Source: Ureibacillus massiliensis 4400831 = CIP 108448 = CCUG 49529 (GTDB taxonomy: Bacteria; Bacillota; Bacilli; Bacillales_A; Planococcaceae). Taken from it: a DNA stretch of 64,000 bases. The DNA is taken from contig NZ_JPVQ01000004.1 of assembly GCF_000772965.1 (NCBI RefSeq), forward strand, positions 1 through 64,000. The letters are read 5' to 3'. The notes under the pieces are model-generated. The model was not told the origin of the DNA, searched no databases, and was given only the letters and a program-made list of their open reading frames with translations. Below, piece after piece: positions 29,332 through 52,530 of this stretch; position 1 is the first letter of the stretch; the number at the start of each line of letters is the position of its first letter. The position numbers and the translations under genes are program-made.

Positions 29332-29483
29332 AGATCCAAATTTCAAGAAAAGTATGTTCAAGCATGGATACTTAAAATTTTTTAACTAAAGAACAGATAG
29401 CAAATAACACCTTTAATTGATTTGTTATTAGTTGTAAAATAATATGTGTACTATAAAAAATATTTAATTTATGAACTAGAAAA

Positions 29484-29584
29484 TTGCAGCTAGGGTTCCG
29501 CTATTTTGATAGGTCTTGTGACCGAGGGCTGCATCTTTTACAATTTAGTAAAAGGCACCTATTGACACAAAAGGTCCGAGGGGA
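29484..29584 (+). promoter_or_regulatory. ykkC-class riboswitch aptamer before a Nudix gene
   Basis: Class hallmarks are visible: GCTAGGGTTCCG (29489-29500), a small hairpin CTAT-TTTG-ATAG, GTCTTGTGACCGAGGG (29513-29528), and closing GCAGC (29486-29490) with GCTGC (29528-29532). A hairpin CTTTTAC/GTAAAAG follows, then a second half GACACAAAAGGTCCGAGGGG like the GGGAcAAAAgCCCGGGAG part of ykkC RNAs. The second half is diverged from the guanidine type. ykkC subtype 2 variants bind ppGpp, PRPP or nucleoside diphosphates, and the diphosphate-binding subtype is associated with Nudix genes (established), so it is the leading guess here. Confidence 0.7.
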
Positions 29585-29637
29585 AAGGTTCAGCGTATTT
29601 GTTATGCGTTGAAATCTTTCTTTTCGGACCTTTTTTA
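29569..29637 (+). terminator. Riboswitch-controlled terminator
   Basis: AAAGGTCCGA (29570-29579) pairs with TCGGACCTTT (29624-29633); inner GAAAG/CTTTC and GCG/CGT pairs extend the stem, and a T-run follows. Its 5' arm is the same segment as the 3' half of the aptamer, so a ligand-bound aptamer should prevent terminator formation (an ON switch, inferred). Confidence 0.75.
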
Positions 29638-29656
29638 TATGAAGGAGGACTATCGT

Positions 29657-30097
29657 ATGAAAAGAATTGATGCGTTGAAAGCTGCTGTTGCAGTGATTAT
29701 TTTGAATGAGAAGAACCAAGTTTTATTACAAAAAAGGTCGGATGTTCAACTTTGGGGTATTCCTTCAGGTCATATAGAAGTGGGGGAAACTGTTTCCGAA
29801 GCTGCAATCAGAGAAGTAAAAGAAGAGACCGATTTAGATATACGTATAAAAAAACTAATTGGCGTATACTCAGACCCTACTTCGCAGGTATTTGAATATC
29901 CCAACGGTCAAGTAGTACATTTTATAACAACTTGTTTCCTCGCTGAAATGATAGGAGGAGAACTTAAGTGCAATTCGAATGAATCATTGGATATCAAGTT
30001 TTTTTCAGAGGAAAACCTACCATCAGATCTATTAAAAATGCATCCTAGATGGTTAAAAGATGCATTATCTAATAAAGAATGGGCGTTCATTCGGTAA
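29657..30097 (+). CDS. Nudix hydrolase
   Basis: 146 residues from the ATG at 29657 after GAAGGAGG; the open frame upstream (from 29609) lies inside the terminator. The Nudix box is complete: G(x5)E(x7)REVKEETDL, in GHIEVGETVSEAAIREVKEE. A Nudix enzyme cleaves nucleoside diphosphates linked to another group, or nucleotides, with Mg2+ in the cytosol; this one is MutT-sized and its substrate is unknown. The ykkC-class RNA in its leader suggests a substrate or product that the RNA senses, such as a nucleoside diphosphate. Confidence 0.9.
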   Translation: MKRIDALKAAVAVIILNEKNQVLLQKRSDVQLWGIPSGHIEVGETVSEAAIREVKEETDLDIRIKKLIGVYSDPTSQVFEYPNGQVVHFITTCFLAEMIGGELKCNSNESLDIKFFSEENLPSDLLKMHPRWLKDALSNKEWAFIR

Positions 30098-32066: not shown

Positions 32067-32966
32067 TTGAAGGATAAATTATCTCCTTTTTTAATATTAT
32101 TAGCGGCTATTCTTTGGGGAACGACCGGTACAACACAAGCCTTTGCACCTGAAACAGCGCACCCGATTGCAATTGGAGCCACTCGTTTAGCTGTAGGAGG
32201 TTTATTTTTAATAGTCGTTGTGTTAATTATAGGTAAGTTCGATTTTAAAAATTGGCCTATCAAGACTACGATTTTAGCTTCTTTAAGTATGGCTTTGTAC
32301 CAGCCGTTATTTTTCTCAGCTGTTTCGATTACGGGAGTAGCTGTTGGAACTGTTGTAGCTATCGGAAGTGCACCTATTTTATCTGGGATTATTGAATGGC
32401 TCTATTTAAAAGTTCGTCCTTCTAAGGTGTGGTGGTGTTCCACGTTTCTTTCAATTTTAGGGTGTCTAATGCTTTTTAGTAATAAAGAGTCGGTAAACGT
32501 TGATCCATTTGGAATCTTGATGGCGCTTGGAGCTGGATTATCCTTCGCAGGGTACACTTTAATAAGCAGAACTTTAGTTGAAAAGCATTCATCTATATCT
32601 GTTGTGGCGATTGTATTCACGCTTAGTGCAATCTGGTTATCTCCATTATTATTTATATTTGATATGTCATGGATTATGAGCTTGCAAGGTGTGGGTGTAA
32701 GCCTTCAATTAGGAATTATGGCAACGGGGATAGCGTATCTCCTTTTTGCAAGAGGACTTAAGAACGTTTCTTCATCAACAGCAGTTACGCTTGCGTTAGC
32801 GGAGCCATTAACAGCTGCATTGTTAGGTGTATTCTTATTAGAGGAAACATTGAACATCACTTCATGGATAGGGATATTCCTCTTATTGCTTGGAATTGGA
32901 ATATTAATGTGGACGCCCAAAAAATCGGATAGTGAAAATGAAATTATGCTAGCTCAAAAGGAGTAG
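32067..32966 (+). CDS. EamA/DMT family transporter
   Basis: 299 residues with ten hydrophobic helices in two EamA repeats. ILWGTTGTTQAF in helix 1 and ALAEPLTAALLGVFLLEETLN near the end are typical of RhaT/YdcZ-like drug/metabolite exporters. The start is a TTG with GAGGTG upstream. The substrate is unknown; amino acids or metabolites are common. It probably works under the AraC regulator encoded just upstream. Confidence 0.88.
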   Translation: MKDKLSPFLILLAAILWGTTGTTQAFAPETAHPIAIGATRLAVGGLFLIVVVLIIGKFDFKNWPIKTTILASLSMALYQPLFFSAVSITGVAVGTVVAIGSAPILSGIIEWLYLKVRPSKVWWCSTFLSILGCLMLFSNKESVNVDPFGILMALGAGLSFAGYTLISRTLVEKHSSISVVAIVFTLSAIWLSPLLFIFDMSWIMSLQGVGVSLQLGIMATGIAYLLFARGLKNVSSSTAVTLALAEPLTAALLGVFLLEETLNITSWIGIFLLLLGIGILMWTPKKSDSENEIMLAQKE

Positions 32967-52253: not shown

Positions 52254-52350
52254 TGAATGGTGAAGTTTCATTTTACCAATCATGGTGGAAAGAATAGAAC
52301 TATTCGATAAATCTGTGGTACAATGATGCCAACTACGAAATGAAGGGAAG

Positions 52351-52395
52351 ATGGGTGGACAATGGACAAATAATCTTATTTTAGTTCTGAGATAA
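52351..52395 (+). CDS. Putative vmlR leader peptide
   Basis: A 14-codon frame MGGQWTNNLILVLR starts at ATG 52351 just after GAAGGGAAG and stops at 52393. It lies upstream of an antiterminator/terminator pair before the ABC-F gene, the arrangement of ribosome-sensing attenuators. An internal ATG (52362) in another frame reads only MDK. Which one is translated is not shown by the sequence. Confidence 0.5.
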   Translation: MGGQWTNNLILVLR

Positions 52396-52419
52396 ATAAA
52401 ATGTTTATTTCAACAAAAT

Positions 52420-52530
52420 AGGATTAGTCTGCCCATTTTCATTATAAATTCAAGTTATCTGTAATTAAAGATAGCTTTTTTAGAGATGTAAAAAGACTAA
52501 TCCTTCCGAAAAAAACGGGAGGATTTTTTT
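52420..52530 (+). promoter_or_regulatory. Transcription attenuator of vmlR
   Basis: AGGATTAGTCT (52420-52430) is the exact complement of AGACTAATCCT (52494-52504). The second segment is also the 5' arm of the terminator AATCCTTCCG (52499-52508) / CGGGAGGATT (52516-52525) followed by TTTTTT. The two pairings exclude each other: an antiterminator. A second hairpin, AGTTATCT/AGATAGCT (about 52454-52477) with T-run, lies between them. A stalled ribosome on the leader peptide would favour read-through. Confidence 0.75.

Follow-up and report, generated by a model that had tools for sequence, protein, structure and literature searches.

A Nudix-linked ykkC RNA of Ureibacillus massiliensis that probably belongs to riboswitch subtype 2c

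Subtype 2c of the ykkC RNAs, the ADP/dADP/CDP/dCDP or "NDP" riboswitch class, was reportedly described in 2019 by Sherlock, Sadeeshkumar and Breaker. According to a review by its discoverers, the genes under 2c control code for NUDIX and HAD-like hydrolases, and its ligands are the diphosphates of adenosine and cytidine, with either ribose or deoxyribose; the same authors call its true ligand somewhat unclear (PMC7266159). A second review lists 2c as an ADP class (PMC9971707). RNAs are sorted into subtype 2 by a base other than A at the position of guanidine-I A46, and the related PRPP and ppGpp riboswitches have been reported to be ON switches (PMC6031431).

We analysed a 64,000-nt stretch of the U. 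massiliensis genome, referred to here as the window. A ykkC-scaffold riboswitch with an overlapping intrinsic terminator was located at positions 29472-29634 of its forward strand, directly 5′ of a Nudix hydrolase gene. An earlier note made from the sequence had placed such an element at 29484-29656. Its presence was borne out, but the true start lies 12 nt earlier, at 29472, where the 5′ strand of helix P0 begins. The features of the locus are as follows.

29472..29592, + strand: aptamer, ykkC scaffold of the Nudix-linked type assigned here to 2c (RF00442, 41.5 bits; Nudix-leader model R1, 135.7 bits; pairs formed in 98.5% of cells in 33 leaders)
29472..29476, + strand: 5′ strand (TGAAC) of the add-on helix P0, pairing with 29588-29592
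29477..29485, + strand: conserved linker J0/1, CYRGRA-like in the alignments
29486..29532, + strand: P1/P1a/P1b arm with CTAGGGTTCCG and GACCGAGGG
29534..29555, + strand: P2 hairpin, double-sided changes in 5/8 pairs
29556..29587, + strand: J2/3 and P3 with the 2c-type sequence GCACCUAUUGACACAAAAGGUCCGAGGGGAAAG, nearly invariant in 33/33 leaders and different from the PRPP and ppGpp types
29564-29566/29574-29576, + strand: P3 stem, with loop ACAAAAG at 29567-29573
29588..29592, + strand: 3′ strand of P0 (GTTCA) and 3′ end of the aptamer, the switching strand common to the terminator 5′ arm
29569..29634, + strand: intrinsic terminator made of a 30-bp hairpin followed by a U-run, with P3 and P0 partly inside it (−40.7 kcal/mol; 97.1% of pair cells kept)
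29644..29648, + strand: Shine-Dalgarno sequence GGAGG, from the sequence
29657..30097, + strand: Nudix hydrolase gene, 146 aa (PF00293, 81.4 bits)

Positions 1-107 of the Rfam family RF00442 (Guanidine-I), the whole model, aligned to 29479-29582, scoring 41.5 bits (E = 2.4e-6 for 301 nt; genome-wide E = 7.6e-6). In the whole 4.0-Mb genome this family matched only twice, at the Nudix leader and at an SMR-linked switch. The leader scores below the RF00442 gathering score of 63 bits and is therefore missed by a default Rfam scan; cmscan at gathering thresholds gave no match in this region. The fold z-score in the window was −6.5, and none of 200 shuffles was equally stable. The hallmarks of a ykkC RNA named in the earlier note were present at 29490-29500 (CTAGGGTTCCG) and 29520-29528 (GACCGAGGG), its closing stem corresponds to P1 (29486-29490/29528-29532), and both the overlapping terminator and the downstream Nudix gene that it described were recovered.

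When the Nudix protein was used as a query against 84,980 species genomes, 31 relatives with 60-85% identity were retrieved, and 30 of them carried the ykkC motif 163-196 nt 5′ of the start codon. A covariance model built from the Nudix leaders (R1) confirmed the leaders of these relatives at 113-149 bits, and it found no aptamer at the exceptional locus from Paenibacillus fonticola (L030) or at 49 loci of more distant Nudix homologues. An alignment of 33 leaders, from hosts ranging from Bacillales to Clostridia and Desulfotruncus, had a mean column identity of 87%. Double-sided changes were seen in 10 aptamer pairs, compared with 1.9 in shuffles and at most two when the partner strand was slid. 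Given this column identity and covariation, the ykkC-type observation at the Nudix leader is confirmed as far beyond chance. Of the 250 genomes in the family sample, no more than about a dozen carried the element. The 3′ half, which the earlier note had described as deviating from guanidine-type sequence, was nearly invariant in the 33 leaders; the deviation is a conserved subtype signature and not decay.

The order P0, J0/1, P1, P2 and P3 matches the layout of the PRPP riboswitch (PMC6031431). P0 is formed by alternative pairs in the wider set of relatives (GAAC/GUUC, GAGC/GCUC and CGAAC/GUUCG). At the position of guanidine-I A46 and PRPP C49, the marker base is G29527. We asked whether a conserved hairpin after P0 (CAGCGUAUUUGUUAUGCGUUG) might be a further helix of the aptamer and rejected this: its length and sequence change in distant members (L104, L136, L138 and L144), and it is therefore better taken as the apical part of the terminator. 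Upstream of P0, no convincing promoter was found in the window; in many relatives, a TAAAAT-like −10 element lies immediately 5′ of P0.

Subtype was assessed by running R1 on draws of 398 and 399 genomes. Scores fell into an upper group (92-150 bits) and a body (≤62 bits), with one relative between them at 70.9 bits. The genes following members of the upper group were nearly all Nudix genes. The body was found mostly in contexts reading as purB and purE (purine) and as ilvE and ilvD (amino-acid), names taken from the translations as read, without a family search; it is in such contexts that PRPP and ppGpp riboswitches would be expected. The Nudix leader scored 135.7 bits with R1, whose training set includes it and many relatives, and members outside that set (L102, L103, L130 and others) also scored within 92-150 bits. 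One element of the upper group (L135) precedes the N-terminal part of a HAD gene (PF13344). The published description of 2c can be followed through the locus. The ykkC scaffold is evident from the full-length RF00442 alignment and from the structure kept in 33 leaders, the sorting base is a non-A (G29527), the extensions before P1 and after P3 are present as P0 (TGAAC/GTTCA, conserved), and a Nudix gene adjoins the element on its 3′ side here and in 30/31 relatives, with a HAD gene in L135. Set beside the published descriptions, the scaffold, marker base, P0 and gene association thus point to subtype 2c.

Folding of the nascent transcript indicated how the aptamer and terminator exclude each other. 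Four of the five P0 pairs had probabilities >0.99 when the 3′ end lay at 29597-29605; the probability of P0 was ~0.2-0.5 at 29613 and zero from 29620 onwards. In these growing-transcript folds, UUCA is captured by the terminator first and the P3 strand after it. As P0 forms and is then displaced, the ligand should switch the Nudix gene ON. In the alignment of the 33 leaders, the terminator 5′ arm, on the aptamer side, is nearly invariant and the 3′ arm drifts between G-C and G-U, as is typical of a strand that has to pair with two partners. Binding of the ligand would stabilise the aptamer, chiefly P3 and the add-on helix P0. The 3′ strands of both helices (29574-29592) are part of the terminator 5′ arm, so that, while they are held in the aptamer, the terminator could not form and RNA polymerase would read into the Nudix gene. 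Without ligand, P0 and P3 would be displaced by the terminator and transcription would end at the U-run near 29634. We assign a probability of roughly 85% to the reading that this RNA is a 2c riboswitch of the ON type working through transcription termination, with ADP, dADP, CDP or dCDP as its ligand by class membership. The scaffold, the subtype, the mutual exclusivity of aptamer and terminator and the tie to the Nudix gene come out of the computations. The direction of switching in the cell is what we infer from this scheme, and the Nudix enzyme would presumably clear or balance nucleotides.

The alternative that survives best retains the 2c scaffold and changes the ligand: the natural ligand would be something other than (d)ADP or (d)CDP, for instance a damaged or non-canonical nucleotide, or the RNA would represent one of two specificities within 2c. 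Nucleotides of this kind are handled by Nudix and Ham1 enzymes, and the discoverers' own reservation about the ligand (PMC7266159) leaves room for the idea. One 2c-type aptamer, the relative scoring 70.9 bits (L144:1501-2508), lies 5′ of a gene for a Ham1/RdgB-type house-cleaning pyrophosphatase (PF01725, 148.3 bits). Moreover, the marker base co-varies with the final P3-loop base as G/G versus C/A or C/U: at the positions of 29527 and 29573, 53 distinct 2c-type aptamers had G/G (46, including the window), C/A (four), C/T (two) or G/A (one). Six distinct relatives thus have a C marker, and the ligand may differ within the group. The covariation is strong by Fisher test, yet on the Nudix tree it comes down to one or two independent events, the G/C split amounting to two changes, and the G and C forms both precede the same Nudix family. 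We regard a different ligand or a split specificity for this RNA as improbable. A broader proposal is more tentative than the 2c assignment, and we hold it only as a doubtful possibility: 2c may contain two specificity subgroups, distinguished by the combined state of the P1a pocket base and the last P3-loop base (G/G, as in this RNA, versus C/A or C/U). Its signal may be an imbalance of nucleotides for which several house-cleaning hydrolases (Nudix, HAD and Ham1) are needed, and the long conserved J0/1 would form a pocket that reads the base and that PRPP and ppGpp aptamers lack. The Ham1 target of L144 falls outside the Nudix and HAD genes named in PMC7266159 and PMC9971707.

That the Nudix gene is under the control of a PRPP (2b) or ppGpp (2a) riboswitch is very unlikely. 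Both types have the P0 add-on helix and the scaffold in common with the Nudix leader, but the leader scored only 51.7 bits with the PRPP model (R2) and 51.4 bits with the ppGpp model (R3), compared with 117-126 and 93-114 bits for the members of these types themselves. The sequences of J0/1, J2/3 and P3 differ as well. J0/1 is ~9 nt long in Nudix leaders, with C-Y-R-G-R-A mostly conserved, whereas most PRPP and ppGpp types have very few bases there; a role of J0/1 as ligand contact is possible. Finally, the gene 3′ of the leader is not one for purine or amino-acid biosynthesis. The orphan subtype 2d, known by an EamA/TauE transporter gene downstream, was also considered and set aside: the adjacent gene is the Nudix gene, and an EamA gene at 32067 lies beyond three other genes. 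Among the ppGpp-type elements, one (L155:1501-1933) is followed by a T-box-like leader of 74.2 bits (cut-off 93), a possible tandem regulator.

That the leader is a guanidine-I riboswitch in front of an atypical gene is extremely improbable, even though RF00442 was the only Rfam family to match it. The 41.5 bits fall short of the cut-off of 63, and authentic guanidine-I RNAs from the same genome and from the genus reach 87.7 and 77.3 bits. The one in the same genome (L001, 87.7 bits) precedes two SMR exporter genes (PF00893, 63.0 and 100.8 bits), and no guanidine-related gene is found 3′ of the Nudix leader. The preference of the earlier note for the NDP-binding variant over guanidine is upheld by the sub-threshold RF00442 score, the G in place of A46, the presence of P0, the different and conserved 3′ half, the separation from the PRPP and ppGpp models and the association with Nudix, HAD and Ham1 hydrolase genes. 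Equally hard to credit is a vestigial ykkC remnant with only the terminator at work, since, although decay does occur (L142:1501-1619, − strand, a degenerate copy of 92.1 bits that adjoins an amidohydrolase gene, with no Nudix gene behind it), the pocket region here is near-invariant, compensatory changes occur over 33 leaders, and the identity to a congener (G125) is 95%.

The 2c-type leader and its Nudix gene form a conserved unit of ~720 bp. No other gene is common to the loci, except for a three-locus family away from the element. On the Nudix tree, Alkalibaculum, one of the Clostridia, is nested among the Bacillales, and Ammoniphilus is placed among Bacillaceae sequences, in a part of the tree whose inner branches are not strongly supported; these placements suggest horizontal spread of the leader-Nudix unit. 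We looked for an empty site and found that the DUF1697 gene neighbouring the unit sits elsewhere in other species of the genus. A stretch of 3,088 bp around the unit is identical between Halalkalibacter okhensis contig62 (L005:1-3088) and Evansella vedderi (L006:1-3088); either it was transferred very recently or one of the two assemblies is contaminated. The P. fonticola locus (L030:1676-2935) encodes a 419-aa fusion of a HAD hydrolase (PF13344) with a Nudix domain (PF00293) 60% identical to that of the window; the fusion is a natural link between two target gene families of 2c. Elsewhere in the window, at 52330-52530 (+ strand), the Bacillus sRNA family ncr1575 (RF02452) was matched with 119.8 bits (cut-off 60).

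The Nudix leader is clearly a well-supported new example of a described riboswitch class and not a new class; nothing at the locus requires a new kind of system. The 2c class is thinly annotated and its ligand is not fully settled. None of the scans made returned an Rfam family specific to the NDP class, and its members fall below the RF00442 cut-off and are thus missed by default annotation. The Nudix-leader alignment and R1 offer a way to find 2c members and to widen the gene list, to which the Ham1-linked aptamer and the HAD-Nudix fusion, linking two known target families, are additions. The self-contained, conserved riboswitch-Nudix units of Bacillales would make simple test cases for the 2c ligand.

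Of the known systems, Guanidine-I (subtype 1, RF00442) has the layout of P1, P2 and P3 and the P1 core in common with the Nudix leader, which differs in the G at A46, P0, the 3′ half and the gene context (41.5 bits versus 63). The ppGpp riboswitch (2a) has the scaffold with P0 in common with it, at 51.4 bits and in another gene context. The PRPP riboswitch (2b; PMC5912903, PMC6031431) has P0, P1, P2, P3, the terminator overlap and the ON logic in common with it; the Nudix leader has a long J0/1 and different J2/3, P3 and P0 sequences (51.7 bits). Against the reviews' description of 2c (PMC7266159, PMC9971707) we found no difference: common to both are the ykkC scaffold with a changed binding pocket, the conserved extensions 5′ of P1 and 3′ of P3, the downstream Nudix gene, and relatives in front of HAD genes.
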